From contig JAEWIS010000021.1 of assembly GCA_023386955.1 (NCBI GenBank), forward strand, positions 1-64,000: DNA of 64,000 bases, in the 5' to 3' direction. This DNA is from Bacillota bacterium (GTDB taxonomy: Bacteria; Bacillota; Bacilli; Paenibacillales; NBRC-103111). Numbering within the stretch: position 1 is the stretch's first letter; each line of letters starts with the position of its first letter. Shown here one piece after another: positions 5,884-51,803 of this stretch. The notes beneath the pieces were generated by a model. The model was not told the DNA's origin and did no database searches. It was given only the letters and a program-made list of their open reading frames with translations. The translations under genes and the position numbers were made by a program.

Positions 5884-6063
5884 ATGCAAAAGTGCAGGTA
5901 AATTCTTCGATTTGCGCCAAAATGACAGGCCATCCTGCAAAAGTGCATCTATTTCGGCGCAGATACGTCCAAATTGCGGTTCAGGGTAAAAATAACTGCA
6001 CTTTTGCAGGAAGAGGTCCGAATTCAACGTTGGCCAAGAAAATAACTGCACTTTTGCAGGAAG
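5884..6063. repeat. Nested inverted element D (50-nt pitch)
   Basis: The arm seed TGCAAAAGTGCA occurs forward at 5885 and 5936 (51-nt pitch). Its complement TGCACTTTTGCA occurs at 5997 and 6047 (50-nt pitch), each with an adjacent AAAATAAC or CTATTTCGGC segment. The layout forward-forward-reverse-reverse matches the elements at 31.7, 35.6, 43.9 and 51.6 kb. It lies in the 565-bp gap between rarD and the chemotaxis receptor gene. Confidence 0.85.
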
Positions 6064-6177
6064 CATGCGGAGCGAGGCAGGCGCAGGGTTTGAAAGTAGA
6101 AAATTGGTGGGATTCTGGGTTTCTGGGTTTCGGGGCTGCAGAGGACCGAGTTCCCTCCTGCCTCCTGACCACAGCCA

Positions 6178-6209
6178 ACAGGCCGTCCATCCGGACGGCC
6201 TGTTTTTTA
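6178..6209 (+). terminator. Rho-independent terminator
   Basis: A perfect 11-bp stem (6178-6188 with 6193-6203) with a four-base loop is followed by TTTTTT on the plus strand. No plus-strand gene ends nearby, so it may stop a transcript arising in the repeat element just upstream. Confidence 0.75.
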
Positions 6210-6220
6210 TGCCGAGGCTG

Positions 6221-6334
6221 CTGCCAGCGCTCCACGGCTATTCCTTGCTCTAATTCTGCTGCCAGCGCTCCACGGCTATTCCTTGCTCTAATTCTGCTTT
6301 CAGCGCTCCGCGGCTATTCCTTCACCTTAAACTG
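6221..6334. repeat. 38-bp triplication at the 3' end of the chemotaxis gene
   Basis: Copies start at 6221, 6259 and 6297. The last contains the TAG stop (6314-6316) and last codons of the chemotaxis receptor gene. The two downstream copies are nearly identical to each other and more diverged from the coding copy, suggesting duplication of the gene end into the 3' flank. Confidence 0.85.
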
Positions 6335-8017
6335 CTGCAGCAGCTCCTGCAGGCTGTCCGCCAGGCGGGACAGGTCCGCCGAGGAGGCGGATACCTCCTC
6401 CATGGAGGCCAGCTGCTCCTCGGAGGAAGCGGCCACTGTTTGGGTGTTCATGGATGTGCTCCGGGCCACTTCCTCCAGACCGCCGAAGGTTTGCTCCGCC
6501 TCCTGCACCTGCTCCACGATGGTATTGGTGATCCGGGTGGTTTCCCTGACCTTCAGCTCCACTTCCTTCATGGCCTGGACGATCTCCCCGAACTTCAAAT
6601 CGGTTTCCTCCACCGCCGCCATACCCCCGTTGACCTGGTCCTTCACCTGAACCATGGAGCCCACAGTGCGCTCGATATCCGCACGGATGTCGCTGATCAG
6701 CTCCGCCACCTTCTCCGCAGAGGTCCGGGAGCCCTCCGCCAGCTTCTTCACCTCGCCGGCCACAACCGCAAACCCTCTGCCGGATTCCCCGGCCCGGGCC
6801 GCTTCAATCCCCGCATTCAACGCCAGAAGGTTGGTTTGAACCGCAATCCCTGCAATCACCTTTACCATCTCCTCAATTTGCTCCGACCGGTGGGCCAGGC
6901 TGCGGATCGCCGCATCGGACTGATCCACGGCGCCATGAATCTGCATCATCTGGGCCACGGTGCGCTGAACCGCCTGGGCCCCTTCCCCTGCCAGCTGGCC
7001 CGCCACGGCCGTCCGCTCCAGCGCTTCCCGGGAATCCCCGCCAATGGCGCTCATCCCCGCCGCGATATCCTGCATCAGCTTGCCGCTTTCATTGGTTGCG
7101 GCCAGCTGGGAGTCCGCCCCGGCGGAGATATCCTGGATGGACATGGCGATATGCTCGGTGGCCTTGCTGGTTTCATCGGCGCTGACCGTCAGGATCTCCG
7201 CTGTACCGGCAACCTGCTCGGCAGTGGATGCCGCACCTTGAATAAGACGGATCAGCCCTTCGCGCATCCGGTTAAAGCTGCTCACCAGCATGCCGATCTC
7301 ATCCTGCGACCGGTCCGCCACCTCCACGGTGAAGTCGCCGTGTCCGGCAGCCTCCAGTGAGGCCTTCACCCGGCCGATGCGGCGGGACAAACCCCAGACG
7401 AAGAAGAAAATTGCCACTACGGAGACGACCAGTACACCGGCCAGAATGATCCACACCAGCCTCATGGCTTCATTGGCATGCTCGAGCACAGCCGCCTCGG
7501 AGGTGCCGGCGAACAGAATGCCCACCGTTTCTCCTCCTTTATTTTTGAGAGGCAGATAAGAGGTTTGGTATTCCTCTCCCAGAATAGTGGCGGTGCCCTG
7601 GTAGGCTTCACTCCGCTTCAATACCACCTCTTCCACCGACGGATCCACTGTGGTTCCCACCGCCCGGCTGCCATCCTCCTTCAAAACATTGGTGGCTACC
7701 CGGGTATTGCCCTGAAAAAGGGTCATCTTATTGCCGGTGGACGTTTGGATTTCATCCAATATTTCATTATTGCCGTTCATCTTCTGGGTGCCCTTGTATA
7801 AACCCTCCGCATTCACGGACCAATCACCGGGATAACGGGCCTCCAGATATTTCAACGCCAGAGCATTGGTACCGACCGCATTCTGGGATACCTCATCCCG
7901 GATTCCGTCCTTGAGCATCATCAAAAACATTTGGGACATGGTAACTGCCATCATAAGCAGCAGCAGCAGAAACATCAGAAAAATTTTCGGTCCCAACTTC
8001 ATTTTACGAAGTAACAT
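6314..8017 (-). CDS. Methyl-accepting chemotaxis protein
   Basis: Transmembrane chemoreceptor of about 567 residues. A first membrane helix (residues 10-30) precedes an extracytoplasmic sensor of roughly 150 residues resembling a single Cache domain (GNTRVATNVLKEDG, TSYLPLKNKGGETVGILFAG). A second helix is near 190-210, then HAMP, then a long cytoplasmic coiled coil with the conserved hairpin tip (IAGIAVQTNLLALNAGIEAA). The ATG at 8017 is preferred because AAGGAAG lies at proper distance; an ATG 23 codons upstream lacks this. No chemotaxis kinase genes are nearby, so it is an orphan receptor. A 38-bp repeat begins in its last codons. Confidence 0.93.
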   Translation of the reverse strand: MLLRKMKLGPKIFLMFLLLLLMMAVTMSQMFLMMLKDGIRDEVSQNAVGTNALALKYLEARYPGDWSVNAEGLYKGTQKMNGNNEILDEIQTSTGNKMTLFQGNTRVATNVLKEDGSRAVGTTVDPSVEEVVLKRSEAYQGTATILGEEYQTSYLPLKNKGGETVGILFAGTSEAAVLEHANEAMRLVWIILAGVLVVSVVAIFFFVWGLSRRIGRVKASLEAAGHGDFTVEVADRSQDEIGMLVSSFNRMREGLIRLIQGAASTAEQVAGTAEILTVSADETSKATEHIAMSIQDISAGADSQLAATNESGKLMQDIAAGMSAIGGDSREALERTAVAGQLAGEGAQAVQRTVAQMMQIHGAVDQSDAAIRSLAHRSEQIEEMVKVIAGIAVQTNLLALNAGIEAARAGESGRGFAVVAGEVKKLAEGSRTSAEKVAELISDIRADIERTVGSMVQVKDQVNGGMAAVEETDLKFGEIVQAMKEVELKVRETTRITNTIVEQVQEAEQTFGGLEEVARSTSMNTQTVAASSEEQLASMEEVSASSADLSRLADSLQELLQQFKVKE

Positions 8018-8256
8018 GTGCTCGCTTCCTTTCCATGGTGAGTCTAAGTTGTATAAGTCGGCAACTTTTCTTACTTTATTCGACATTCTTCTTCACAACC
8101 CTTTAGACCTATTTCTGGCATTTCGAATTTAAATGAAATTTGAATCCCATTTACATTAGACTTGATTCAAAAAGCCTCCCCGTCACCTGCCCGGATAAAC
8201 CGGCATATGCTGATTGCAGCCGGAATGCAAGCCCGTGGAAAAAGAGGAGGATCCTT

Positions 8257-8598
8257 ATGCCGCCCCGTTATCGGATCATTGTCGATTTATCGCAGCTTAT
8301 GCTGCATTTGCTGGAGGGAGACACGGTGGTAAAATCTTATCCTGTGGGCATTGGCACCATTGCCTCCGCTTCCCCCGAGGGTCTGTTTAAAATAATCAAC
8401 AAACAGCCCAATCCCGGCGGCCCCTTCGGAGCTTTCTGGATGGGACTCTCTAAACCCCATTACGGCATCCACGGAACCAACCGTCCCGACTCCGTCGGCA
8501 AACGGAGCTCCCACGGATGCATCCGCATGCACAACGCCGATGTGCTGGATTTGGCCGCGAAGGTATCGGTTGGTACTGAAGTACGGATACGGAAATAA
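8257..8598 (+). CDS. Short L,D-transpeptidase (YkuD domain)
   Basis: 113 residues, essentially a bare YkuD domain. The catalytic signature is complete: H72 in the HGTN motif, and S85-H86-G87-C88-I-R-M with C88 as nucleophile. Such enzymes cross-link peptidoglycan peptides 3-3 or attach proteins. The ATG at 8257 follows AGGAGG; no signal peptide, LysM or membrane helix is encoded at this start, and the upstream reading to 8140 does not add one. Either it is released by another route or it acts late, for example in the mother cell during sporulation (inference). Confidence 0.88.
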
Positions 8599-8756
8599 AT
8601 ACATGACATATATATAACATTATATGTTGTGTAATTTAGGTACATGTTACATTTTCAGCAACTTTGAAGCCAAATACATTCCCTTTTCCTGAAAACCGGC
8701 TATAATCAAGCCATAGATATGGCAAGTTATATCCCATAGCAGAGGAGAGGGTAACC

Positions 8757-9071
8757 ATGAACATGCGGTTGAAGGCAATGAAAAAGCATATATTCTTTTG
8801 CGGCAGCGAGCATTGCGAGGGTCAGGAATCCAGCGAGGTGATGGAAGCGGTAAAGGAAAAGCTGGTGGAGGCGGGCATTCATAAGGAAATCAAGCTCAGC
8901 AAAACCAACTGCCTGGGTCTGTGCGGCAACGGCCCCTTCGCCCTGGTTTACCCGGACGGCATCTGGTATTACAACCTGACCACAGATGATGCCGAGCGCA
9001 TTGTGATGGAGCATCTGGTGAACAACGAGCCGGTGGAGGAACTGATCATGCACCGGATTTCCGCCACCTGA
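8757..9071 (+). CDS. Thioredoxin-like [2Fe-2S] ferredoxin
   Basis: 104 residues of the thioredoxin-fold ferredoxin family related to NuoE. The four cluster ligands are C15, C20, C52 and C56 (C-x4-C and C-x3-C). The central NCLGLCGNGP motif is diagnostic. GAGAGGG precedes the ATG. It is likely a small cytoplasmic electron carrier; no partner oxidoreductase is adjacent. It converges with alkA with 29 bp between. Confidence 0.88.
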   Translation: MNMRLKAMKKHIFFCGSEHCEGQESSEVMEAVKEKLVEAGIHKEIKLSKTNCLGLCGNGPFALVYPDGIWYYNLTTDDAERIVMEHLVNNEPVEELIMHRISAT

Positions 9072-9100
9072 TCCGCCGGTACGGACAGTCTTCCTTATAT

Positions 9101-10030
9101 TTAATACAGCGTTCTCCATAAATAAAAGGTGGCATAAGCACGCCACGGCTGCCAAGCACGCCCCATAGTCTCCACTACAGAGAGGGAGGGCTTCACCGTT
9201 TGGCCCAGCCTCATGCGGATGGCATGATGCAATCCCACATCCGACAACGGGAAGGCGTCCGGGTTGCGCAAGCAGCGCATGGACACATATTGGGCCGTCC
9301 ACGGTCCGATCCCCCTTATCTCCATCAGCTTATCCTCCGCCAGCCGGAAGTCCTCCATCAGCAGGAGCTGTTCCTTGGACAGCTCTTTTTCTGCGATGAG
9401 ACTGGCTATGGACAGCAGGGTTTCCGCCTTGAACCGGCTGAACTTCAGCGTTTGCAGCTCCTCGGGAGGAACGCCGGCCAACCGTTCGGCGGAGGGAAAC
9501 AGCATAAATCTGCGGCCCTGATGGACAAGCTCCTCTCCATATGTCTCCACCAGTCTTTTTTTGAGAGTATAGGCAAAGGAAAGATTGATCTGTTGGCCGA
9601 TAACCGTCCAGCACAAGGCCTCCAGAAGACTGGGCACTCCCACCAGCCTTAACCCCCTGAACCGCTCCGCCACAGGCTGAAGCACCGGGTCCCGGGCACA
9701 TAAGTCATAAAATTCCTCCAGCCGGGTATCCAGATCGAGCCATTCCCGGACAAAAGCCACCGCTTCCTCCCGCTGCGCGGCAGCAGGCTCACCGTTCAGA
9801 AAACGCAGGATGAGATGGCGCCCCCCCTCTACAGAAGAGGCCTCCGTTTCCCGGCCTTCCTCCTCGCCGATAGCCATAAGCACCGGTTCGTTTCCGATCC
9901 GGATGGCCTTGTATACGATCCGGTCCTCCACCTGGTGCAAACATTCCGACTCATTGCGTTCCAGGTACCCCAATGAATGGCTGAAGTTATAGTCCTGCGG
10001 CACTGCAAGCCGCACAAGGCTTTTTTCCAT
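9101..10030 (-). CDS. alkA: DNA-3-methyladenine glycosylase II (AlkA type)
   Basis: 309 residues. Excises alkylated bases in base-excision repair. An N-terminal AlkA-N-like domain (1-105) precedes the HhH-GPD domain. The hairpin-helix-hairpin is LMEIRGIGPWTAQYV and the catalytic aspartate lies in LSDVGLHHAI (about D264). AGGAGG is 10-15 bases ahead of the ATG. No adaptive-response regulator (Ada) gene is adjacent. It is divergent from the unknown gene at 10193. Confidence 0.92.
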   Translation of the reverse strand: MEKSLVRLAVPQDYNFSHSLGYLERNESECLHQVEDRIVYKAIRIGNEPVLMAIGEEEGRETEASSVEGGRHLILRFLNGEPAAAQREEAVAFVREWLDLDTRLEEFYDLCARDPVLQPVAERFRGLRLVGVPSLLEALCWTVIGQQINLSFAYTLKKRLVETYGEELVHQGRRFMLFPSAERLAGVPPEELQTLKFSRFKAETLLSIASLIAEKELSKEQLLLMEDFRLAEDKLMEIRGIGPWTAQYVSMRCLRNPDAFPLSDVGLHHAIRMRLGQTVKPSLSVVETMGRAWQPWRAYATFYLWRTLY

Positions 10031-10090
10031 AGCTAAAGTATTCCTCCTATTCCGTTATAGAATGTGATGTCAAGATGCTTGTCCATGGGG

Positions 10091-10096
10091 TATAAT
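10091..10096 (+). promoter_or_regulatory. -10 box of the 10193 gene
   Basis: A perfect TATAAT lies about 100 bp before the 10193 start, in the alkA intergenic space. TGTCAA 17 bp upstream is only a weak -35. Confidence 0.5.
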
Positions 10097-10192
10097 GGCA
10101 GGTAAGGCAGCAGTGCGTTTTTCCGCATGCCATGCAGACTGCCCATTGGGCTCGCGCTGCAGCGGGCGCCGCATACCGGAGGTGGATGCCCC

Positions 10193-10795
10193 TTGCCAGA
10201 TATTGTCCTTCAACCCCTTAGCCCCAAGCTGTCGGAGCAAGCCTTATCCCGATATATCCAAACCTTCCTCGACCAGGAACGGATGTCCGTTCATGCCTTC
10301 ATGATGCTGGAGAAGCTGCGGCGCAACAAGGGCTACCGGAACAGCGGCTACTCCCTGTGGGATTATTATGCTACGGACCGGAAGCGCCGTCCCTATATCA
10401 TTTCCGAGCAGACCTTCAAGAGCTACACCCACAAGCTGGAGGAGATTCTGGTGTATTGGGACCACCGGTATATGGAAGCGGCTTCACCCTTTGCCCGGGC
10501 CAGCGGGGTCTGCATCGCCAATTACAAGGAGCTGGCCACCCATCTGGAGCAATGTCCGCCTACGCTGTACCTGTTTGACCGGGATTACCAATGGTCTTTG
10601 GTACGGACGGATGAATCCCAGAACGAAATGGACTGGAACTGCCTGCAGATCGGCGAAATCGGCTCGCGCCTGCGGTCAACGCGCACAACGGCAGCAGGGG
10701 AACCGGCCGGGAAACCTCAGGCCATCGTTGCCCCGCCGGAGGGTCCCGCCTCTAATCTGATTCCACTGCTCCAGTCTGTTCCCAAAATCACGTGA
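10193..10795 (+). CDS. Conserved-looking protein of unknown function
   Basis: About 200 residues, not a family I recognise. It looks soluble and mixed alpha/beta, with a Tyr- and Arg-rich stretch (residues 35-75), a central part containing CIANYKELATHLEQCPP, and an Ala/Pro-rich C-terminal tail. The TTG at 10193 is chosen because GGAGGT lies nine bases upstream (10178-10183); a longer ATG reading from 10127 has no ribosome site. Codon use matches its neighbours and a terminator follows directly, supporting a real single-gene transcript. No functional statement is warranted. Confidence 0.75.
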   Translation: MPDIVLQPLSPKLSEQALSRYIQTFLDQERMSVHAFMMLEKLRRNKGYRNSGYSLWDYYATDRKRRPYIISEQTFKSYTHKLEEILVYWDHRYMEAASPFARASGVCIANYKELATHLEQCPPTLYLFDRDYQWSLVRTDESQNEMDWNCLQIGEIGSRLRSTRTTAAGEPAGKPQAIVAPPEGPASNLIPLLQSVPKIT

Positions 10796-10804
10796 CCATA
10801 ACCA

Positions 10805-10842
10805 AAACTGCTCCCCGGATCGATGCCGGGAAGCAGTTTTTT
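10805..10842. terminator. Bidirectional terminator
   Basis: AAACTGCTCCCCGG pairs with CCGGGAAGCAGTTT around a short loop, followed by a T-run on plus and preceded by A-rich sequence. It serves the convergent 10193 gene and metY. Confidence 0.8.
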
Positions 10843-10871
10843 TGAGTAAAATATGCAATTATAATCTGTGC

Positions 10872-12236
<1,365 letters not shown>

Positions 12237-12238
12237 TC

Positions 12239-12264
12239 ATTATACCAAGTATTCAAGTCGGTAT
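12239..12264 (-). promoter_or_regulatory. metY -10 box and overlapping inverted repeat
   Basis: On the minus strand TATAAT occupies 12239-12244. An inverted repeat, ATACC-N13-GGTAT (12242-12264), overlaps it, and a further half-site ATACC lies at 12280-12285. This suggests repression at the promoter, perhaps by an Rrf2-type sulfur regulator. The regulator's identity is inference. The rest of the 12165-12497 gap shows no other recognisable element. Confidence 0.5.
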
Positions 12265-12497
12265 TGTAATAATTTAAATCATACCAACTTTACAGGACTC
12301 CGTCAATTCATTTACTTCTTTTCCCCGCCTGAAAATTCCTGCTTTCCTATGCAAAAGGGATTAAACGCCCTGCTTAGCCTCTCCGGGTATGGAGTGGCAT
12401 CCCCGGGTTATACTAGGGTGTATGTGCAAACTTAAGGGCTTGCATGAGATGCCGGTCTAAGATGTACACCTATCTTTTTCAAGAGAGAGACCCAGCC

Positions 12498-12989
12498 ATG
12501 ATTAAAGAACGCGTGATTCTGACAGCTACCTGGATTCTTGTCCTTGCAGCCATTGGCCTGCTGGTGAAACGAAGCACCTGGCACCGGTTTGCCGCAGGAT
12601 ATCTGATGGCCCAAAACCTGACCTGGCTGAATGTCCTCATCCACTGCCAGCTGGGGATGTTCGATTATCCCGTACGGGAGTTCCCCAAGGCTACTGACGT
12701 GGGCTTCACTCTGCAATATCTCCTTTATCCTGCCGTTGTCGGCTTTTGCATCCTGTTCGAGCCGCGGGGCTCCTTTGTGAAAAAAACCTTATATATTCTC
12801 ATATGGCCCACAGGATTGATTATCCTCCGGCTGGTGCTGATGCGTTATACGCAGCTCATTGTTGCCCACCACTACAATTTGCTGCTGGATTGGGTGACGA
12901 TGCTCGTCATCTTCCTCATTCCCTTAGGCGTGACCAAATGGCTCTTCCGGGGCCCGGGTTATCTGCAGGCGGAGGAGAGGATTGTATGA
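12498..12989 (+). CDS. CBO0543-family membrane protein (first of pair)
   Basis: 163 residues with four or five hydrophobic helices. Features seen in this little-studied Firmicute family are the YPVREFPKATDVGFTLQYLLYP block and a C-terminal HHYNLLLDWVTMLVIF helix. The ATG at 12498 has a purine-rich leader (AAGAGAGAGA); an upstream ATG at 12462 is possible. The last codons overlap the next gene by four bases, so the two are translationally coupled. Function is unknown. Confidence 0.8.
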   Translation: MIKERVILTATWILVLAAIGLLVKRSTWHRFAAGYLMAQNLTWLNVLIHCQLGMFDYPVREFPKATDVGFTLQYLLYPAVVGFCILFEPRGSFVKKTLYILIWPTGLIILRLVLMRYTQLIVAHHYNLLLDWVTMLVIFLIPLGVTKWLFRGPGYLQAEERIV

Positions 12990-13483: not shown

Positions 13484-13513
13484 CCTCGCCTGAAAGCGGA
13501 GCAGGGACTTTCA
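13471..13513 (+). terminator. Terminator of the CBO0543 pair
   Basis: AAAGTCCCTG pairs with CAGGGACTTT around a 19-base loop at the stop codon region. The following T-run is weak. Confidence 0.6.
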
Positions 13514-13531
13514 CTTTGCAGCAAATATTGC

Positions 13532-14344: not shown

Positions 14345-14410
14345 GCTGTTCACCCCTTGCCCTAATAATCAAATCTCCGACAAGGGTAATATGGCACAAA
14401 GAGGCGGAAT

Positions 14411-27128: not shown

Positions 27129-27155
27129 AGACGCCTCGCCAATAGCAAAGCGCCT
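27129..27155 (-). terminator. Riboswitch expression-platform terminator
   Basis: On the minus strand AGGCGCTTTGC pairs with GCGAGGCGTCT (11 bp, some G-U) around TATTG, followed by TTTTT. It lies between the TPP aptamer and thiM, so TPP binding would be expected to permit this hairpin and stop transcription. Confidence 0.82.
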
Positions 27156-27168
27156 CAAAACGGGCAAG

Positions 27169-27250
27169 CTCCCTACGCTGGCATGATCCAACAGGTTCCA
27201 ATGGTAAACGGCGGACAGCCGTACTCTCAGCCCGCTCCTGCGGACTCCCA
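27169..27250 (-). ncRNA. TPP riboswitch (THI box)
   Basis: Minus-strand sequence contains the conserved CTGAGA in GGGCTGAGAGTACGG, then ACCTGTTGGATCATGCC and AGCGTAGGGA, with GGGAGTCC closing the P1 side. These are the defining blocks of the thiamine-pyrophosphate aptamer. It controls thiM by a downstream terminator. Confidence 0.95.
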
Positions 27251-27326
27251 TGCTTCATATGCAATTACGATCATCTTACCAAGAAGGCCTGTGCTTGGCA
27301 ATGCGAAGCAGCCGTCTTATACAATC

Positions 27327-31713: not shown

Positions 31714-31896
31714 TAACGGAACTATCCGTCTCTTACAGAGCAAAAACAGGCGAATTCCAAATCTAACGGAACTATCAGACCGTTAGCGCCAAATTACTCA
31801 CTAAATTTACGAAAAAACCTCCTGTAAGAGCCGGCCAGTTCCGTTAAAAATTCTGGCGGCCTATTTTCGGCACTTAAGAGCTTCTGAGTTCCGTTA
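31714..31896. repeat. Nested inverted element E (50-nt pitch)
   Basis: The seed TAACGGAAC occurs forward at 31714 and 31764 and its complement GTTCCGTTA at 31838 and 31888, both at exactly 50 nt pitch. Outer arms are extended: TAACGGAACTATCCGTCTC pairs imperfectly with the segment at 31821-31846. Further decayed reverse units follow at 31937, 31969 and 32024, including a 32-bp direct duplication with CGCCTCTAAGTT. Confidence 0.85.
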
Positions 31897-32121
31897 AAGC
31901 TCCGGCAGCTTCATTCCCCCACCCAACCGCCTCTAAGTTTCGTTAAAGCTCCGGCCAACCGCCTCTAAGTTCCGTTTAATCGGGGTTCTGACGATTCCAA
32001 CTCGAGCACCTCCCCACCTCCAAGCTCCGTTAAATTCGACAACCTTATTTCTGCAAACCCAGGCTTCCCGGTTCTATAAGAATATCGCATACAACACCTC
32101 CGTTACTGTTCTGCCGACTGT

Positions 32122-35579: not shown

Positions 35580-35770
35580 ATTCTAACGGACGCCAGAGCC
35601 CTTAATTGCGCCAAAACGGGTGGCGAAAATTTCTAACGGAAGTGAGAGCCCTTATTGGCTCCAATTGAGCCTGATTGAGGCCATTTTGCCTCAAATAACG
35701 TCTCTCACCGCCGTTAGAAAAAAATCAGCGCCGAAAACAGGCAAATAGCGTCTCTCACCGCCGTTAGCGG
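35580..35770. repeat. Nested inverted element A (50-nt pitch)
   Basis: CTAACGGA occurs forward at 35583 and 35633 and CCGTTAG at 35711 and 35761, both exactly 50 nt apart. The inner arms pair over about 28 bases (CTAACGGAAGTGAGAG and its complement), and a CTTATT/AAATAA segment lies 19 bases from each seed. It lies between convergent pepT and gtfA. Confidence 0.9.
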
Positions 35771-43822: not shown

Positions 43823-43877
43823 AAAAAAGAGCCCGCGGGGCGAGCTCCGCCGGGTCGTATGTGCACCCCCCTGCCAA

Positions 43878-44071
43878 GTTTCTAACGAATCTCAGAAGCC
43901 TTATTTCGGCAAAAACGACCCTTTCGAACATGTAACGAATATGAGCCACCTTATTTCCTGCTCACTGTTCTAATCCGAGCCTGTTTCCACGAAATAAGCT
44001 TCCTCAGATTCGTTAGAACGAGAGACAGGGGGAAACGGGCAATATAACGTTGCTGACATTCGTTAGAAAAA
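43878..44071. repeat. Nested inverted element B (50-nt pitch)
   Basis: TAACGAAT occurs forward at 43883 and 43933; its complement contains CGTTAG at 44011 and 44061. Both pitches are exactly 50 nt. CTTATTTC follows the forward seeds by 18 bases, and GAAATAAG precedes a reverse seed. It lies between convergent GH32 and methyltransferase genes. Confidence 0.9.
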
Positions 44072-44204
44072 CCCGACGCCGGTGAAGGCTGCTTCCCGCA
44101 GCCTACGTCTCCCGAACCGCCTCCTTGCAGAGGACCGCCGACTTATCCTGCCGATTCAAGTAGGCAGGACCTAAGCGCCTCAGCATTTATACGATCTGTT
44201 CATT

Positions 44205-44240
44205 TAAAAAAACGCCCTTACCGGGCGTTTTTGCGTTTTT
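44205..44240. terminator. Bidirectional terminator
   Basis: AAACGCCC (44210-44217) pairs with GGGCGTTT (44223-44230), A-run before and T-rich after. It serves the minus-strand methyltransferase and any plus-strand read-through. Confidence 0.75.
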
Positions 44241-44312
44241 AAGAGGTCTTGGCGGACGCGCCGTTGTTCCTAAGGCGGGCGGGCCCTGAAGCAGGTCTGT
44301 TCATGACCTGCT

Positions 44313-44912: not shown

Positions 44913-45003
44913 GGGCCTTCACCCTTTCTGTTTGCTGTGCTCCCAAGAGACAGGCAGTATGGTATAATAAAACGAATTTATGAGTACAGGGGGCTTATCG
45001 GAT

Positions 45004-45393
45004 ATGTGGAAAGATTTTAAGGCTTTTGCATTGAAGGGAAATGTGCTGGATCTGGCCGTCGCCGTTATTATCGGCGCCGCCTTTGGCAAGATTGTTTCGT
45101 CGCTGGTTAATGACATCATCATGCCGCTTTTTGGACTGCTCATCGGAGGCATTAAGCTGGACGGTTTGACTTATCAATATGGGGATGCCGTGCTGAAATA
45201 CGGAGTGTTCCTGCAATCGGTGGTGGACTTCTTCATTATCGCCGCTTCCCTCTTTTTTGTCATCAAGATGGCGGGCAAGCTGAAGCGCAAGGAAGAAATC
45301 AAAGCCCCTGCACCGGCAGCTCCCAGCGCAGAAGTGGTGCTTTTAACAGAAATCCGCGATGCTCTGCGCAAAAACGGCAGCTCGACCAATTAA
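45004..45393 (+). CDS. mscL: Large-conductance mechanosensitive channel MscL
   Basis: 129 residues. Opens with MWKDFKAFALKGNVLDLAVAVIIGAAFGKIV, the amphipathic helix and pore helix TM1. TM2 is VDFFIIAASLFFVIKMA, and a charged C-terminal helix follows. It releases osmolytes under hypo-osmotic shock. The ATG at 45004 is nine bases after GGGGG; the ATG at 44980 would overlap that site. TATAAT at 44963-44968 is the likely -10. Confidence 0.96.
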   Translation: MWKDFKAFALKGNVLDLAVAVIIGAAFGKIVSSLVNDIIMPLFGLLIGGIKLDGLTYQYGDAVLKYGVFLQSVVDFFIIAASLFFVIKMAGKLKRKEEIKAPAPAAPSAEVVLLTEIRDALRKNGSSTN

Positions 45394-45407
45394 TCCTATC
45401 TGCATCA

Positions 45408-45454
45408 AAAACCCGGCAGACCGGAAGCTTATGCTCCCGGCGCCGGGTTTCTTT
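45408..45454 (+). terminator. mscL terminator
   Basis: AAACCCGGC pairs with GCCGGGTTT around a long apex, followed by CTTT. It may also serve the convergent monooxygenase gene. Confidence 0.7.
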
Positions 45455-45463
45455 ATACACATA

Positions 45464-45757
45464 TTAGACTTCCCGTTCCACCAGCAGGCGCTTCACTTGC
45501 GCGGGTTTGGCAAAATAGCTCCCAGCCTCCGCGAAGAAGCTTGTGAAATGCGGCGTATTGTTGTGGAATTCAATCGCCTCCATGTCCTTCCACTCCTCCA
45601 CCACAATGAAGGTTTCCGGCTCATTGGTCTGACGGAACAGATCATAGCTGATATTGCCTTCCTCCGCCTGGGAGCCGGCTACCAGTGCTTTGGACTTCTC
45701 CATGAACGCCTCCACATATTCCGGCTTCACGTACAATCGGGCATGAATGATAATCAC
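45464..45757 (-). CDS. Antibiotic-biosynthesis-monooxygenase-fold protein (YgiN-like)
   Basis: 97 residues. Dimeric ferredoxin-like fold typical of ABM proteins: IIIHARLYVKPEYVEAFMEKSKALV, SYDLFRQTNEPETFIVVEEWKD, and HFTSFFAEA. GTG start at 45757 with GGAGAG seven bases ahead. Family members act on quinones or heme or are cofactor-free oxygenases; specificity is unknown here. Confidence 0.87.
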   Translation of the reverse strand: MIIIHARLYVKPEYVEAFMEKSKALVAGSQAEEGNISYDLFRQTNEPETFIVVEEWKDMEAIEFHNNTPHFTSFFAEAGSYFAKPAQVKRLLVEREV

Positions 45758-45828
45758 GAGTAATCTCTCCTTTTTTCGCTTAACTGCTCTCTTCCCATCC
45801 TACTCCCTTTTGCCGGGTCACGCCATGT

Positions 45829-46782
45829 CTATTGTTCAAACACGGACAAAAACCGGCCCACCGCCCGTTCTTCACGAACATTCACCGCCACCGAAATTTC
45901 GCTGCCCACTTTAGGGATCGGCCTCAGATCGGCCACCACCATACCTGCACAGAGACTGCTTTCGCAGTCCACCCGGACGTGCATGGGCCGGTATTCCAGC
46001 AGCTCGGGATGGACAGCGGCGATTACCGCCAGCGGATCATGGAGGGGAGCACTGTCCATGAAGAAGTTGCTGCGCCGGTAGAAGTCGAAATAATACTCCA
46101 GACTCTCCTGCATAAACCGGACCACCGGCTGTACTGCCTCCGGAGCCTTCAGCTGCAGCAGCTCCAGATGGCTGCGGGTAATCCGCGTGCGGAGGGTGAC
46201 ATCCAGCCCGATCATCATGAGAGGCAATCCTGCGGTGAACACCCGGTCCGCCGCCTCCGGGTCTCCCCACAGATTCGCCTCGGCCACCGGTGACACATTC
46301 CCCGGCGCAAATACCGTTCCGCCCATAACCACCACCCGCTTTAGCAGAGTGGGCAGCTGGGGCTCCAGCTCCAAAGCCAGGGCCAGATTGGTCAGTCGTC
46401 CCATGGTTACCAAGGTCAGCTGGCCGGGATTCTCCCGGGCCATACGGCAGATCAGCTCCGGCCCCGGCTCCTCCACCGGCTGCTGCCGGGAGGTTGGCAA
46501 TTCCACTCCGCCCAGCCCGTTATTTCCGTGCACATGCACAGCATACTCCCGCTGGGGACGGACCAGGGGCTTCCTGGCTCCAAGAGCCACAGGGATTCTG
46601 CGCTCCGGGGCCGCCAGCTCCAACAGCCGCAGCGTATTCTCTGCGGATTGTTCCGTAGCGATGTTACCGAAGCAGGTGGTGATGGCCTCCAATTGGATAT
46701 GCGGGGAGCGGAGCGCGAATAAAATGGCTAACGCATCGTCAATGCCCGTATCGGCATCGATAATCATGCGGGTTGGCTGCAT
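45829..46782 (-). CDS. Inosine-uridine-type nucleoside hydrolase
   Basis: 317 residues. N-terminal calcium/ribose-binding signature D9-A-D11-T-G-I-D15-D16, HVHGNNGLGG, VVMGGTVFAPGNVSPVAEANLWGDPEAA, and a C-terminal histidine region (LHDPLAVIAA). It splits ribonucleosides into base and ribose for salvage. The ATG at 46782 follows AGGAGG. No transporter is adjacent. It is divergent from prkA. Confidence 0.93.
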   Translation of the reverse strand: MQPTRMIIDADTGIDDALAILFALRSPHIQLEAITTCFGNIATEQSAENTLRLLELAAPERRIPVALGARKPLVRPQREYAVHVHGNNGLGGVELPTSRQQPVEEPGPELICRMARENPGQLTLVTMGRLTNLALALELEPQLPTLLKRVVVMGGTVFAPGNVSPVAEANLWGDPEAADRVFTAGLPLMMIGLDVTLRTRITRSHLELLQLKAPEAVQPVVRFMQESLEYYFDFYRRSNFFMDSAPLHDPLAVIAAVHPELLEYRPMHVRVDCESSLCAGMVVADLRPIPKVGSEISVAVNVREERAVGRFLSVFEQ

Positions 46783-46995
46783 GCTGGTTTCCTCCTGATT
46801 TTTTAACATTCTAATTATTTTCTGAATATTCTTATTTGTCCGACAATTAAAAATGTTGTAGAATAGGTTATAAATCCCTTTCATCCGTCACCCCTGTTCC
46901 GTTTCCGGCATCTGCACCGTTTGGTTTCCGGCAGAGATCACCGCAAGGGGTCTTTGTGTTCTTCACATTCTACTACCGAGAAGGAGGAGCCGTCT

Positions 46996-48894
46996 ATGCC
47001 GTTCTTGGACAAGCTGTCCCATTACCGGGAAAAGGAACATCAGCTGCATTGGGAAGGTACGTTTACGGATTACCTGGACATGGTCAAGGAACGGCCGGAA
47101 ATTGCCGGATTGGCCCATGACCGCATCTACCGGATGATTGAGGCCGCCGGTGTGGAGGACAAAGGAGACGGCCGCCGGGAGTACAAGTTCTTCAGCTCCC
47201 AATTATACGGGCTGGAGGAGGATCTGCAAACCCTGGTGGAGGAATACTTCCGCCCCGCCGCCCAGCGCCTGGATGTGCGCAAGCGGCTTCTGCTGCTTAT
47301 GGGCCCGGTGAGCGGAGGCAAGTCTACTCTGCTTGCCCTGCTTAAGGAGGGTATGGAGAAATTCTCCCGGACGGAGGCTGGAGCCGTCTTCGCTATTAAG
47401 GGCTGCCCCATGCAGGAGGAGCCCCTGCACCTGATTCCCCATGAGCTCCGGGAGGAATTTCAGGCGGAATACGGCGTACGCATCGAAGGAGACCTGTGCC
47501 CCGTCTGCCGGATGCGGCTGGACCTGGAGTTCGACGGCCACGCCGAACGGATGCCCGTTACCCGGGTGCTGTTCTCGGAGGCCAAACGGACAGGCATCGG
47601 CACCTTCGCCCCCTCCGACCCCAAATCTCAGGACATTGCGGACCTTACCGGTAGTATTGACTTTTCCACCATCTCCCAATACGGCTCCGAATCGGACCCC
47701 CGCGCGTACCGCTTCGACGGCGAGCTGAACAAAGCCAACCGGGGCCTGATGGAATTCCAGGAAATGCTCAAGTGTGATGAAAAATTCCTCTGGAATCTCC
47801 TCTCCCTGACCCAGGAGGGCAACTTCAAGGCCGGGCGCTTCGCCTTGATTTCCGCCGATGAGCTGATAGTCGCCCATACCAATGAAACCGAGTACCGGTC
47901 CTTTATCGCCAACAAAAAGAACGAAGCCCTCCACTCCCGGATGATCGTCATGCGGATTCCCTACAACCTGAAGGCCAGCCAGGAGGAGCGGATTTACGAC
48001 AAGCTGATCAAGCAGTCCAATATCCAAGGGGTCCACATCGCCCCCGGAGCCTTGAAGACGGCGGCTGTGTTCAGTATCCTGTCCCGGTTGAAGGAATCCA
48101 AGAAACCCGGTATGGATCTGTTGAAAAAGCTGTATCTGTACGACGGCCAGGAGGTGGACGGGGCCAAAAGCGGCGATGCCGCCGAGCTGCGGAAGGAATT
48201 CACCGACGAGGGCATGTCCGGGGTGGATCCCCGGTACGTCATCAACCGGATCTCCAGCGCCCTAATCAAAGGGGATAAACCCTGCATCAATTCCCTGGAT
48301 GTGCTGAAGTCCATGAAGGAGGGGCTGGACCAGCATGCCTCCATCTCCCGGGAGGAGCGGGAGCGGCTCCTGAACCTGATCACCATGGCCCGGGCGGAGT
48401 ACGATCACCATGCCAAAACCGAGGTGCAGCGGGCTTTTGTCTATTCCTTCGAGGATTCGGCCCATACCCTCATGAACAACTATTTGGACAATGTGGAGTC
48501 CTACTGCAACGGCTTTAAGCTGAAGGACCCCATTACCGAGGAGGAGCGGGACCCGGACGAAAAGCTGATGCGTTCCATCGAGGAGCAAATCGGCATTTCG
48601 GAGAACCAGAAGAAGGCCTTCCGGGAGGAAATTCTGATCAAAATCTCCTCCTTGGCCCGGCGTGGCCAAAAATTCGAATACACCTCCCACGAGAAGCTGA
48701 AGGAGGCTATCGAGCGGAAGCTGTTCGAGGATCTGAAGGATGTGGTGAAGATTACCACCTCGGTGAAAAATCCCGATGAAGGCCAGCTGAAGCGGATCAA
48801 CGAGGTGTCCGCACGGCTGATGGACCAGCACGGGTATTGCCCCTCCTGCGCTAACGAGCTGCTGAAGTATGTAGGGAGTCTGTTGAACCGGTAG
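46996..48894 (+). CDS. prkA: PrkA AAA+/serine protein kinase
   Basis: 632 residues. N-terminal AAA+ module with Walker A GPVSGGKST (about 103-111), a characteristic Cys pair region (LCPVCRMRLDLEF), and DLTGSIDFSTISQYG. The C-terminal PrkA domain ends with HGYCPSCANELLKYVGSL. Known in B. subtilis as a spore-related kinase/protease-like protein and in enterobacteria as YeaG. The ATG at 46996 follows AAGGAGGAG. First gene of a three-gene operon with yhbH and spoVR. Confidence 0.95.
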   Translation: MPFLDKLSHYREKEHQLHWEGTFTDYLDMVKERPEIAGLAHDRIYRMIEAAGVEDKGDGRREYKFFSSQLYGLEEDLQTLVEEYFRPAAQRLDVRKRLLLLMGPVSGGKSTLLALLKEGMEKFSRTEAGAVFAIKGCPMQEEPLHLIPHELREEFQAEYGVRIEGDLCPVCRMRLDLEFDGHAERMPVTRVLFSEAKRTGIGTFAPSDPKSQDIADLTGSIDFSTISQYGSESDPRAYRFDGELNKANRGLMEFQEMLKCDEKFLWNLLSLTQEGNFKAGRFALISADELIVAHTNETEYRSFIANKKNEALHSRMIVMRIPYNLKASQEERIYDKLIKQSNIQGVHIAPGALKTAAVFSILSRLKESKKPGMDLLKKLYLYDGQEVDGAKSGDAAELRKEFTDEGMSGVDPRYVINRISSALIKGDKPCINSLDVLKSMKEGLDQHASISREERERLLNLITMARAEYDHHAKTEVQRAFVYSFEDSAHTLMNNYLDNVESYCNGFKLKDPITEEERDPDEKLMRSIEEQIGISENQKKAFREEILIKISSLARRGQKFEYTSHEKLKEAIERKLFEDLKDVVKITTSVKNPDEGQLKRINEVSARLMDQHGYCPSCANELLKYVGSLLNR

Positions 48895-48942
48895 GAGGGT
48901 GTGATCCATGGATTTTCATATTAAAAAGGAGGGATCAGGTCC

Positions 48943-50172
48943 ATGCAAAAGCCGCTATTCGTGCTGTCCCGGGATGATTGGTCGCTCCACCGGAAGGGGG
49001 AACGGGATCAGGAACGGCATGCCCGCAAGGTGAAGGAGGCCATCCGCAACAATCTAAAGGAGCTGGTCAGTGAGGAAGCGATTATTACCTCCCAGGGGGA
49101 GCGGATGGTGAAGGTGCCCATCCGGGAAATGGATGAACCCCGCTTCCGTTATGATTACGGCAGCCAGCAGCATGTGGGCCAAGGCAGCGGAGGCACCAAG
49201 GCCGGCGACGTCCTCGGCCGGGCCTCCCGGAACGGCCGGCAGCCGGGCCAGGGTCAGGAGGGGGAGCCGGGAGACCAGCCCAGCTTGGATTATTACGAGG
49301 CCGAGGTGACGGTGGACGAGCTGGCGGAGCTGATCTTTGAGGATCTGCAGCTGCCCCGCCTGCAGCGGAAGAGTGAAGCGGATATGTCCATCGACGATAT
49401 CCGCTTCAATGATATCCGGCGCAAGGGCATGATGGGCAACATCGACAAACGCCGGACGCTGCTGGAGTCCCTGAAGCGCCGGAGCCTGACCGGCAGCGGC
49501 GACGGCGGCGCGGCGACAGCATGGAGCGACGGTGGAGGCGGGTTGGCCGGTTGGGATGCGGGAGCTGCTTCGGGCGGCGGGGCCGGTCTGATCAAGAATG
49601 AGGACATGCGCTTCAAAACCTGGGAGGATATCCGGAAGCCCCAGAGCAATGCGGTGGTGCTGGCCATGATGGACACCTCCGGTTCCATGGGCAGCTTCGA
49701 GAAGTATATTGCCCGCAGCTTCTATTTCTGGATGGTGCGCTTCCTGCGCATCCGCTACGAGCGGGTGGAGGTCTGCTTCCTCGCCCATGATACCGAAGCC
49801 AAGCAGTTGCCGGAGGAGGCTTTCTTCACCAAGGGGGAAAGCGGCGGCACCCGCTGCTCCTCGGTCTACTCCCTGGCGCTGGACCTGCTGGAGCGGGAAT
49901 ATCCCGGCTCCGCCTATAACGCCTATGCGTTTCATTTTACCGACGGGGATAATATGGATTCGGACAATGCCCTGTCTGCAGAGCTGGTAAAGCAGCTCCT
50001 GCTCCGCACCAATCTGATGGGCTACGGGGAAATCCGCCGGTACATGCGGGCCAGCCGGCTGTGGGACAGCCTCTCCGCCATCAAGCATGAGACCTTCTCC
50101 ACCTCGGTGCTGCAGGAGAAGGGGGACGTGTACCGGACCTTGAAGCAGTTTTTTGGGGAGGGAGTATCATGA
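48943..50172 (+). CDS. yhbH: YhbH/YeaH family (DUF444) VWA-like protein
   Basis: 409 residues. An Arg/Lys-rich N-terminus is followed by the DUF444 core, with a metal-ion-dependent adhesion motif DTSGSMG (about 245-251). A Gly/Ala-rich low-complexity insert lies around 185-215 (GDGGAATAWSDGGGGLAGW), just before the VWA part. Partner of PrkA in Bacillus and YeaG in E. coli; acts in sporulation or stress signalling. It is 48 bp after prkA, and its stop overlaps the spoVR ATG. Confidence 0.94.
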   Translation: MQKPLFVLSRDDWSLHRKGERDQERHARKVKEAIRNNLKELVSEEAIITSQGERMVKVPIREMDEPRFRYDYGSQQHVGQGSGGTKAGDVLGRASRNGRQPGQGQEGEPGDQPSLDYYEAEVTVDELAELIFEDLQLPRLQRKSEADMSIDDIRFNDIRRKGMMGNIDKRRTLLESLKRRSLTGSGDGGAATAWSDGGGGLAGWDAGAASGGGAGLIKNEDMRFKTWEDIRKPQSNAVVLAMMDTSGSMGSFEKYIARSFYFWMVRFLRIRYERVEVCFLAHDTEAKQLPEEAFFTKGESGGTRCSSVYSLALDLLEREYPGSAYNAYAFHFTDGDNMDSDNALSAELVKQLLLRTNLMGYGEIRRYMRASRLWDSLSAIKHETFSTSVLQEKGDVYRTLKQFFGEGVS

Positions 50173-51428
50173 ACCACGCGGAAGCGGAGCAGCTGGAGCG
50201 GGCCATTGAGTCAATTACGGGTATGGCGTTGGAGGCGGGACTGGACTTTTTTACCATGCGTTATGAGGTATGCCCTGCTGAAACGCTGTATTCCATCGGC
50301 GCTTACGGTATGCCCACCCGGTTCACCCATTGGAGCTTCGGGAAAACCTACCACCGGATGAAGTCCGAGTACGACTACGGGCTAAGCCGGATTTATGAGC
50401 TGGTCATCAACTCCGACCCCTGCTACGCCTTTCTTTTGGACCATAACACGCTCCTGCAAAATAAGCTGATCGTCGCCCATGTGCTGGCGCACAGCGATTT
50501 TTTCAAGAACAACGCCATGTTCCGGGGAACGGACCGGCGGATGGTGGAGCGGATGGCGGTGTTTGCCCGGCGGATGCGGGCCTTCGAGCAGGAGTTTGGC
50601 AGTGATGCGGTGGAGGAAACGCTGGATGCGGCGCTTGCCATCCATGAGCATGTGGACCCGCACACCCGCTTCGGCGCCAAGGGCGGCTTCAAGGAAGCCG
50701 AAGGCGGCACCAAGGATGTGGTGGGTTTCATCGCCGGGGAAAGCCGCAGCCTGGCGGACTGGCAGCGGGAGGTGCTGTATATGCTGCGGGAGGAGATGCT
50801 GTACTTCTGGCCGCAGATGGAGACGAAGATTCTGAACGAGGGCTGGGCCACCTTCTGGCATCTGCGCCTGGTGCGGCAGCTGGAGCTGACGGGGGCGGAG
50901 ATTATGGATTTTGCCAAAATGAACGCAGGTGTGGTCCAGCCGGGGACGGGCAGCCTGAATCCGTATTATCTGGGGGTCAAGATGCTGGAGTACATCGAGC
51001 GCCATAAGGGGCTGGACGCGCTGTTCGAGATCCGGGAGACGGAGTCGGACGTGTCCTTCCTCCGCAACTACCTGGACAAGGCCCTGGTGGAGGAAATGGA
51101 CCTGTTCCTCTTCGGCCGCAAGGACGACCTCTACGTGGTCACCTCCAAGGAGGTGGAGGAGGTGAAGCAGACCCTCATCCGCCAGCGCACCAACGGCGGC
51201 TTCCCGTATGTGACCGCCATGGATGGGGACCACGGCGGCCGCGGGGAACTGCTGCTGCTCCACCGCTACGACGGGCTGGAGCTGGACCGCCGGTATGTGG
51301 ACCGTACGCTGCCGCTGGTGCACCGCTTGTGGGGTAAGCCCGTCCACCTGGAAACCCGGGACCGGGACAACCGCAGGCTGGTCTACAGCTTCGACGGGGA
51401 AAAGGTGTTGGCGGGGGTGGCTGGATAG
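50169..51428 (+). CDS. spoVR: SpoVR family protein
   Basis: 419 residues, full-length compared with B. subtilis SpoVR (about 468, with a shorter end here). Conserved blocks include YEVCPAETLYSIGAYGMPTRF, AHVLAHSDFFKNN, NEGWATFWHLRL and NPYYLGVKMLEYIE. Linked to spore cortex formation. The ATGA overlap with yhbH indicates translational coupling. B. subtilis keeps spoVR apart from prkA and yhbH; here all three are together as in enterobacterial yeaG-yeaH-ycgB-type clusters. Confidence 0.94.
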   Translation: MNHAEAEQLERAIESITGMALEAGLDFFTMRYEVCPAETLYSIGAYGMPTRFTHWSFGKTYHRMKSEYDYGLSRIYELVINSDPCYAFLLDHNTLLQNKLIVAHVLAHSDFFKNNAMFRGTDRRMVERMAVFARRMRAFEQEFGSDAVEETLDAALAIHEHVDPHTRFGAKGGFKEAEGGTKDVVGFIAGESRSLADWQREVLYMLREEMLYFWPQMETKILNEGWATFWHLRLVRQLELTGAEIMDFAKMNAGVVQPGTGSLNPYYLGVKMLEYIERHKGLDALFEIRETESDVSFLRNYLDKALVEEMDLFLFGRKDDLYVVTSKEVEEVKQTLIRQRTNGGFPYVTAMDGDHGGRGELLLLHRYDGLELDRRYVDRTLPLVHRLWGKPVHLETRDRDNRRLVYSFDGEKVLAGVAG

Positions 51429-51515
51429 TTGGATCTGGTGCGATAGTTGGCAGGTCTGGTTGTACAGTTGGCGGATAGAGGCAGATGTTCAGCCGGTTTG
51501 TGAGCCGCTAGCGGC

Positions 51516-51565
51516 AAAAAAGCTATCCCGGATGTCATATGTATGACGGGGGATAGCTTTTTTGG
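51516..51565. terminator. Bidirectional terminator
   Basis: AAAAAAGCTATCCC pairs with GGGGATAGCTTTTTT around a CGGATGTCATATGTATGACG apex. It ends the prkA-yhbH-spoVR operon. Confidence 0.85.
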
Positions 51566-51617
51566 GGATTGGTTCAATACCGGCTCTGCTCGGGTGCACA
51601 GGCGGGCGCCGTTTGCT

Positions 51618-51803
51618 TAACGGACAGAGGAGACGCTATTTAGGGGAATATCAGTGTTTTGGCACTGATTCGGACAGAGAGGCCCTTATTGGGCAAGAAC
51701 GAGCCGGTTTGAGCGGTTTTCCAGACTAATAGCGTTTCCTGAGTCCGCGAAACATCCAAACTTACGCAAACTGGAAAAATAACGACCCTACAGTCCGGAT
51801 GCG
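51618..51803. repeat. Nested inverted element C (50-nt pitch)
   Basis: CGGACAGAG occurs forward at 51621 and 51671; its counterparts AGTCCG lie at 51742 and 51792 (50-nt pitch on both arms). GACGCTATTT and its complement AATAGCGTTTC pair just inside the seeds. It lies between convergent spoVR and the GH106-like gene. Confidence 0.88.

Follow-up and report, generated by a model that had tools for sequence, protein, structure and literature searches.

In soil bacteria related to Bacillus and Paenibacillus there are intergenic stretches of about 170-190 bases in which a short dyad recurs at fixed intervals, and three unrelated dyads share one geometry, with centres 50-52, then 61-63 (or 72), then 50-52 bp apart. 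The best reading of such an element, to which we give a probability of roughly one half, is a site wrapped by a putative sequence-specific DNA-binding complex, the main rival being a non-autonomous mobile element. Put in terms of the molecule, and with the same confidence, the 170-190 bp would be double-stranded DNA made for holding by one symmetric, putative nucleoprotein complex.

The window, i.e., the whole stretch of 64,000 nucleotides that was analysed, holds five such elements, to which no strand is assigned:

5885..6058, no strand: element D, TGCA-type; dyads TGCAAAAGTGCA / TGCACTTTTGCA, starts at 5885 and 5936 (forward), 5997 and 6047 (reverse), spacing 51/61/50
31714..31945, no strand: element E, TAACGGAAC-type, five units; forward at 31714 and 31764, reverse (CGTTA) at 31842 and 31892, extra reverse at 31941
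35584..35766, no strand: element A, TAACGG-type, 183-bp class; forward at 35584 and 35634, reverse at 35712 and 35762
43883..44065, no strand: element B, TAACGAAT-type, 183-bp class; forward at 43883 and 43933, reverse at 44011 and 44061
51618..51800, no strand: element C, GGAC-type, partly decayed; CGGAC at 51621 and 51671, GTCCG at 51743 and 51793

The first-pass annotation had described all five as a locus-specific seed given twice forward and twice as its complement. The two-forward, two-reverse design is confirmed at A, B, D and E, with a pitch of 50-51 bp. A scan of the 64-kb window for exact 8-mers in the order F,F,R,R (pitch 15-120 bp) returned only D (51/50, with TGCAAAAGTGCA or its complement at all four starts), E (50/50) and B (50/50), and the same scan returned nothing in 20 second-order Markov control sequences. 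Element A appears among exact words by a single 7-mer, CTAACGG, at 50/50; since F,F,R,R sets of 7-mers of any pitch also arise in controls (one each in 5 of the 20), the case for A is made by its 50/50 pitch together with its score against a unit matrix, 97 bits. On that matrix, built without L086 (a duplicate of an element in genome G022), B scores 132 bits, E only 32 and C 30, and no control reached 18 bits. At E the 50/50 pitch stands, but the third reverse unit makes the element FFRRR rather than a set of four; at C, CGGAC/GTCCG is kept four times at 50/50, whereas the seed claimed for it, CGGACAGAG, is not.

The seeds themselves turned out not to be specific to their loci. The words of A, B, C and E are versions of (C)TAACGRA or of its GGAC part, and D alone is unrelated; in other genomes one word mostly serves the whole genome (TAACGATC in G022, TAACGAAY in G024), with few exceptions and with some genomes holding two or three subfamilies. 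The TTATTT-type segment said to sit about 14-20 nt inside is the weak half of the dyad TAACG-N11-CGTTA; two 400-kb stretches each contain 11 cases of the half-to-half distance of 16. The proposed genome-wide search for the 50-nt pitch bore it out, as 19 of the 22 same-strand TAACGATC pairs lying at most 200 bp apart in 400 kb of G022 are spaced at 50. We likewise recognised no described family in Rfam or in the literature searched, most subscription journals lying outside that literature.

Among 197 Paenibacillaceae genomes, 96 carry the TAACG version, in up to 68 copies each. The TGCA-N4-TGCA version of locus D turned up in 57 of 394 genomes, and CGGA-N5-TCCG, the third word, in 11 of 45, every one a member of the Bacillaceae; several word families co-occur in single genomes. 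The relative G023 has no element by the TAACG or TGCA pattern. An early TAACG count of 16 in 40 genomes includes G033, whose row L096 (171 bp) is a different repeat; L096 was excluded from the unit matrix, the shuffled-spacer tests and the length-class profiles, and is included in the 38-element column profile and in the unit-similarity and target-duplication tests.

The three words share their spacing. TAACG elements, retrieved with patterns that permitted inner gaps of 60-90 or 66-84, are 182-184 bp long in 55 and 192-194 bp in 26 of the 82 distinct cases, L096 being the odd one, so that the two length classes lie 10 bp apart. Four exact TGCA units are present at 24 of 32 scanned loci (22 distinct), every one spaced 50-52/61-63/50-52 under a pattern that allowed a pitch of 48-53 and a centre of 52-82; 8 of the 12 first-choice loci lack four exact units, and at the G599 loci, chosen on three units, the fourth follows at 50-51 in 10 of 10. 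The CGGA type has four units at 6 of 9 loci, all 51-52/61-62/51, and no four exact units at the other 3. For the TGCA and CGGA sets the forward pitch is bounded by the search pattern itself.

Because the dyad centres are near 5, 6 (or 7) and 5 helical turns apart, the sites face one side of the DNA, and the composition between them is periodic. Compared with shuffled spacers, the Fourier amplitude of A/T in 81 TAACG elements peaks at 10.0 bp (mean z 3.1, against 0.7 at 10.5), and that in 23 TGCA elements at 10.0-10.25 bp (z 3.4, against 1.7 at 10.5). In both sets the oscillation runs from end to end, through the centre, and it is flat in the flanks of TAACG elements. The CGGA set (n=6) has its best period at 10.25-10.5, and the TAACG column fit contains a weaker second band at 11.8-12.2. 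Curvature of free DNA, calculated with a wedge table, is not raised (mean z -0.26).

A period below 10.5 bp disfavours a positive, gyrase-like wrap of DNA. The repeat observed lies closer to 10.0-10.25 than to 10.5 bp, which suits a left-handed wrap of the nucleosome type better; nor is gyrase known to require strict identity of a word. A BIME-like site for DNA gyrase or topoisomerase at convergent gene ends would suit the location of the elements, and REP sequences are gyrase-binding sites (PMC1525189); with period and word identity both speaking against it, we consider this explanation hardly probable at all.

Elements tend to sit where gene ends converge and are mostly missing from divergent promoters. 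Within G022, G024 and the window, convergent gaps hold 13 of 23 elements, compared with 19 convergent cases among the 183 other gaps of at least 250 bp (p 1e-6); divergent gaps hold none, compared with 38 among the 183 (p 0.01), and all 23 elements lie between convergent or co-directional genes; with a cruder gene caller this placement holds for 69 of 76 TAACG and 20 of 21 TGCA elements. Element A is flanked by convergent genes, pepT (+) and a sucrose phosphorylase gene (-), and B and C each occupy a convergent gap. A cognate gene beside the element was rejected, as no neighbour family recurs among 137 element-adjacent proteins (the commonest reaches 4/137; one of 138 flanking ORFs was left out). 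As a separate observation, the copies in G077 and G127 stay within the half that surrounds coordinate 0. A general tendency to cluster on the origin side was rejected: the 39 copies of G094 are spread, and the arc in G103 is weak.

The 3'-end location and the nesting of the inverted repeats could also suggest RNA, with nested 3' UTR hairpins stabilising or terminating transcripts. Hairpin partners should then resemble each other most, and word positions 5-9 of the outer pair are indeed slightly more alike (0.79 vs 0.73-0.75). Over whole units, however, F1-R2 (0.63) and F2-R1 (0.62) barely exceed the other pairs (F1-F2 0.63, F1-R1 0.60, F2-R2 0.61, R1-R2 0.61); hairpin partners are hardly favoured, and the arrangement therefore looks like double-stranded DNA geometry, as do the 10-bp A/T phasing and the 10-bp size step, which are DNA features. 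A known RNA family was rejected on Rfam searches: in the window these returned only a TPP riboswitch, away from the elements, none of which matched at gathering score, and 11 element loci gave just two weak unrelated hits. We regard an RNA element as highly unlikely.

Comparison of orthologous elements points to constraint on the words. Across five groups of orthologs, 5 of 80 columns vary at word positions 5-8, where the search pattern imposes nothing, vs 141 of 644 spacer columns (p 0.0006), and gap columns number 1 in spacers vs 122 in near flanks, these elements having been picked as intact. Conservation of the weak half is not significant (p 0.08), and a constraint test at locus X that carries no pattern bias also falls short of significance (5/32 vs 43/133, p 0.08). 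Nine G022 elements have intact words and apparently saturated spacers. Orthology of G022:340543 and G024:158790, in the same gap and 64% alike, is unproven, a non-orthologous control pair being 63% alike. Elements undergo gain, loss and decay by whole units, and individual copies are dispensable: G023 has none by either pattern, and at locus X all four units have intact words in only 7 of 30 species read (G108 was excluded from the second count there).

The elements might instead form a non-autonomous, MITE-like superfamily with two transposase-binding sites 50 bp apart at each end, whose words differ because different transposons supply them and whose short centre spans whole turns so that both ends can pair. 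Among 9 copies taken from the complete genome G103, 7 match one another at 76-94%, and their alignments stop no more than about 15 bp from the outer words (the pairs L177/L180 and L182/L183 share longer flanks), and dispersed or nearby near-copies recur in G183, where they sit inside larger repeats, in G204 and in P. barcinonensis. TAACG copy number ranging from 0 to 68 among genomes of the family, more than one word family in a genome, the lack of elements by either pattern in G023 and the avoidance of divergent gaps also fit. Against this, exact target-site duplications of 2-10 bp show no excess over shuffled flanks in 82 elements (the share of matching letters is a little higher at 4-5 bp, 0.36 vs 0.31 and 0.32 vs 0.27), and none of 18 single-arm hits examined in G022 leads to a longer parent element. 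No autonomous transposon with the same arms emerged from these G022 hits: 5 of the 18 are IS110-like interruptions at contig ends, and 13 are mutated or truncated elements. The saturated spacers around intact words in G022, the constraint in place in ortholog groups, the phasing through the centre and the half-genome distribution in G077 and G127 also argue against mobility, which we hold to be possible rather than probable.

The interrupting sequence inserts at a fixed base, after CGTT, in R1 (G022 contig ends C23 and C45; locus X of G108) or R2 (C14, C20, C31). Its IS110 identity is weak (best E 0.02, with IS110 annotation in 5 of the 12 matches listed and 7 unannotated; nothing in Pfam) and concerns a 27-residue C-terminus, the only part compared because the search for a full copy ended at contig ends.

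The first-pass annotation had proposed selection on structure or within-locus conversion, and not simple copying of one element. Selection on structure survives, as double-stranded geometry (dyad spacing, 10-bp classes, A/T phasing at 10.0-10.25 bp); conversion need not be invoked, given a mostly genome-wide word and four units that resemble one another to about the same degree; and the exclusion of copying was only half right, given the near-copies described above. On the wrapped-site reading, a putative sequence-specific protein would bind the four dyads as dimers and would bend or wrap the DNA between them; the word would co-evolve with the protein while the scaffold geometry stayed fixed, and the element would serve to fold the chromosome locally, to insulate it topologically or to act as a road-block separating transcription units. 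Several results speak against this reading: no neighbour family recurs, curvature of free DNA is not raised, the CGGA period and the second TAACG band lie outside 10.0-10.25 bp, single copies are dispensable, the outer pair is slightly more alike, and neither weak-half conservation nor the locus X test is significant. More speculatively, Bacillales sensu lato may possess a modular, nucleosome-like "wrapping cassette", a 5-6-5 or 5-7-5-turn scaffold with exchangeable words, every word having a cognate reader protein of one and the same architecture, with dozens of copies at gene ends folding or insulating the chromosome and word and protein turning over together between species. If true, this would be a bacterial, sequence-encoded wrapped DNA particle with a swappable address, for which the present tests gave no counterpart among REP, MITE or RNA families; precise and cheap predictions follow (spacing, phase, word), as does a route to the protein. 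Even if mobile, the elements would be a transposon group with MITEs helically phased from end to end and freely changing words, new to specialists.

Among known systems, the outer CTAAC...GTTAG resembles the R boxes of integron attC sites, in which IS110/IS1111 elements insert; the present elements differ in their four units, 50-bp pitch and double-strand phasing. REPs are 20-40 bp long and stand alone or as inverted pairs, most of them bearing a GTAG or CGTC tag; the GTAG REPs are thought to be mobilised by Y1 transposases (RAYT), whereas no transposase is known for the CGTC REPs (PMC3733652). Like REP, BIME and REPIN sequences, our elements are palindromic repeats scattered through intergenic DNA, for the most part where the neighbouring genes converge or run in one direction (PMC3733652), and are hit by insertion sequences at a fixed base, REPs being a fixed-point target most often of the IS110 family (PMC1525189); unlike the 20-40 bp REP units, they have four dyads at fixed helical spacing. 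By eye, the column profile of 38 elements contains no GTAG or CGTC tag. Identity with RAYT/REPIN was rejected: the Y1 domain PF01797 occurs in 10 of the 26 genomes with elements and in 5 of the 24 without, and is absent from the other 16 element-bearing ones, including those with 68, 52, 47, 46, 44 and 42 copies.

Bacterial MITEs are non-coding, 70-300 bp long, with inverted ends, and often stand beside genes (PMC3733652); bcr1-bcr18 of Bacillus cereus are repeats named in PMC3446304. Our elements resemble bcr1, NEMIS and RUP in size, inverted ends, absence of coding capacity and gene-adjacent position, and differ in having no exact target duplication, two sites per end at exact pitch, a centre that is phased and a geometry common to three unrelated words. 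Correia elements, likewise bacterial MITEs, count with them among the near systems. Nucleosome positioning DNA and LrpC-type wrapped DNA show A/T steps with a period of ~10.0-10.2 bp over ~150-190 bp. The elements share this period and length, and differ in having four sequence-specific dyads and a bacterial host.

The window was searched exhaustively for words set as two forward and two reverse units (F,F,R,R, or F1, F2, R1, R2) at pitches of 15-120, and exact 8-mer sets were found only at elements D, E and B, with none in twenty Markov control sequences. Element A was detected through one 7-mer only, and 7-mer sets occur, one each, in 5 of the 20 controls. The single design that the first-pass annotation had proposed for five loci, with a seed kept four times, holds for D, E and B by 8-mers, for A by one 7-mer, and for C only through the shorter CGGAC/GTCCG. 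The features of the window are:

about 5885: element D, word TGCA-N4-TGCA
27153-27261 (-): TPP riboswitch, the window's sole Rfam hit at the gathering threshold
about 31714: element E, with an additional reverse unit at 31941
about 35584: element A
about 43883: element B
about 51618: element C, CGGAC at 51621 and 51671 and GTCCG at 51743 and 51793, the sole word kept four times

Flanking genes include rarD, pepT, SpoVR, GH32, sucrose phosphorylase, and genes for a chemotaxis receptor, a GGDEF protein and a GH106-like product. Tandem repeats (periods 24, 16 and 10 bp) lie directly to the left of A (array end about 35536), B (about 43817) and E (about 31583).

A scan with pepT gave 80 relatives with a best identity of 73%, so that no close kin of the window was found; among these relatives (1.63 Mb), exact 50/50 8-mer sets occur only in Paenibacillus barcinonensis (L038, two sets). 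The pattern TAACG-N45-TAACG-gap-CGTTA-N45-CGTTA is present in 16 of 40 genomes, in one of them (G033) through a different repeat, and in 28 of 398 genomes sampled from the class; a stricter version is present in 96 of 197 Paenibacillaceae genomes, at 0-68 copies per genome. Read backward, the pattern has no match in the 40-, 197- and 398-genome sets. The 50-nt lag, which the annotation had suggested seeking in wider genomes, does stand alone, together with a fixed inner distance, in a 400-kb stretch of P. barcinonensis (G022) and in another of P. amylolyticus (G024). A unit matrix detected 9 elements per stretch, each scoring more than 110 bits; no scores fall between 24 and 110 bits, and the controls are empty. 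About 13 further G022 elements, read by hand as solo arms, have one unit mutated or lost. Full TAACG matches also occur on four viral contigs (L237-L240) out of 2.9 million, where the flanks may be phage or host.

The same geometry recurs with other words. The TGCA-type word of element D is present in 57 of 394 Paenibacillaceae genomes, with 94 and 65 forward matches in G599 and G035, and its reverse-read control is absent from all genomes except G078 (4). Four exact units were found at 24 of 32 scanned loci (22 distinct), spaced 50-52/61-63/50-52, and 10 of 10 G599 loci that had been selected by three units have a fourth, 50-51 bp further on. A scan with free pitch (22-99 bp) covered the 80 relatives and the window and gave 36 matches, 16 at 50-52 (six being elements of the window and L038, and some others tandem palindromes), 8 at 60-62, and the remainder scattered. 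Its matches led to a third word, CGGA-N5-TCCG, which 11 of 45 genomes contain (control 0); all 11 belong to the Bacillaceae genera Neobacillus, Mesobacillus, Pseudoneobacillus and Bacillus. Four units are present at 6 of 9 loci, spaced 51-52/61-62/51. Dyad centres of the TAACG type (TAACG-N11-CGTTA), derived from element profiles, are spaced 50/62/50 or 50/72/50. The TAACG pitch was preset by the search pattern, and the forward pitch was confined by the patterns to 48-53 for TGCA and 49-53 for CGGA; the pattern-free tests of geometry are the inner spacings, the fourth units, the 8-mer search of the window, the G022/G024 lag analysis and the pitch-free scan. By hand count, 35 of the 197 Paenibacillaceae genomes have the TGCA type, 18 of these also the TAACG type, and 113 have at least one, so that the two types co-occur about independently. 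L012 possibly holds a fourth word, GCATACGGAC, at 50/77/50.

Related arrangements were also seen. F,F,R,R sets with a 60-62 bp pitch, one helical turn above 50-52, occur at L045, L046, L060 and other Bacillaceae loci. Cohnella terricola (L051, 8770) has four ATGAAATTTCAT-like dyads 51-52 bp apart, apparently in one orientation (ATATA tail). Adjoining elements are arrays of a 52-bp repeat with TAAGC-N11-GCTTA in G183 (L170-L172), which keeps the 5-N11-5 layout but uses a different word, and short arrays of CTAACGACYACGGCGCGGTTATTGGATG-like units in G103 (L235, about 6000-6150 and 7200-7430). G094, G058 and G083 each have two TAACG subfamilies (TAACGCTTG and TAACGGA) and the TGCA type; many copies of their GGA type repeat ATTTCCCG in one spacer, a sequence similar to a Noc half-site.

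A custom gene caller places 13 of 23 elements between convergent genes and 10 between co-directional ones, with none in divergent gaps; with a cruder caller, divergent gaps hold 7 of 76 TAACG and 1 of 21 TGCA elements. Tandem repeats are found in 17 of 23 element gaps versus 29 of 81 other gaps of at least 450 bp, an association also seen in G022; in G024 alone the counts are only 4 of 9 versus 10 of 36. A tandem array (L105) 245 bp left of G022:C3:161722 has a unit resembling a type I-C CRISPR repeat. In the complete genomes G077 (17 copies) and G127 (13), the arc opposite coordinate 0, assumed to be the origin, is free of copies and makes up 54% of the chromosome (p 0.0001 and 0.001); the arc is weaker in G103 (48%, p 0.03), and the 39 copies of G094 are spread round the chromosome.

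Elements are both lost and gained. Locus X was sought through its flanking gene in 64 genomes, of which 58 matched, and the best 30 of the 58 were read. All four words are intact in 7. By eye, 4 show a point mutation within a word, 6 have lost precisely unit F1 (and one of these an R unit too), 1 carries the insertion sequence described below, 1 is truncated, 3 have diverged or other-word elements (one of TAACGATC type, G633), 6 have no element and 2 are not judgeable. No element matches the TAACG or TGCA pattern anywhere in the genome of G023, which is closely related to G022, and an overlapping 400 kb has none; of 12 loci with anchors to the left and right, 10 have a shorter gap in G023, 1 has a longer one and 1 a misplaced one. 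Near-copies in G103, G183, G204 and L038 indicate that copies also spread. The rival reading is that these elements are non-autonomous, MITE-like mobile elements with two binding sites per end, which would account well for dispersal and word exchange; we give this reading clearly less than even odds. No exact target duplication, recurrent neighbouring gene or link with RAYT was found at the elements. An insertion sequence is placed after CGTT of an R unit at G022 contig ends C14, C20, C23, C31 and C45 and at locus X of G108 (L331), two host species with different element words. It is tentatively classed as IS110-like, from its 27-aa C-terminus only, and the site may be a seekRNA/bridge-RNA target.

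The element looks like a double-stranded DNA feature rather than RNA. A/T content oscillates within TAACG elements and is flat outside, with a best column fit of 10.0 bp in both length classes and a weaker band at 11.8-12.2. Against shuffled spacers, the A/T amplitude peaks at 10.0 bp (TAACG), 10.0-10.25 (TGCA) and 10.25-10.5 (CGGA, n=6 elements). Surface-wrapped, left-handed DNA shows a repeat near 10.0-10.2 bp. Wedge curvature of the elements as free DNA, estimated with a wedge table, shows no rise. The four units are about equally alike, and hence pairing partners are not what is conserved; in the word, the outer pair has only a slight excess of similarity. In five ortholog groups, spacers vary more than the word and the weak half of the dyad, and internal indels are nearly absent; the groups were chosen by intact TAACG and 45-bp gaps, a bias from which word positions 5-8 are free, and the lower variation of the weak half is not significant. 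A symmetric protein complex sitting on one face of wrapped DNA would most simply explain why spacing is fixed and whole-turn while words are exchangeable; we infer the binding, the wrapping and the role. Common to the wrapping and mobile-element readings is a protein reading four sites in phase.

Among known repeat families, MITEs differ in their target duplication. The bcr repeats of Bacillus cereus (PMC3446304) are another known family. REPs differ in their tag and RAYT (PMC3733652), and are similar in location and in being targeted by insertion sequences (PMC3733652, PMC1525189).
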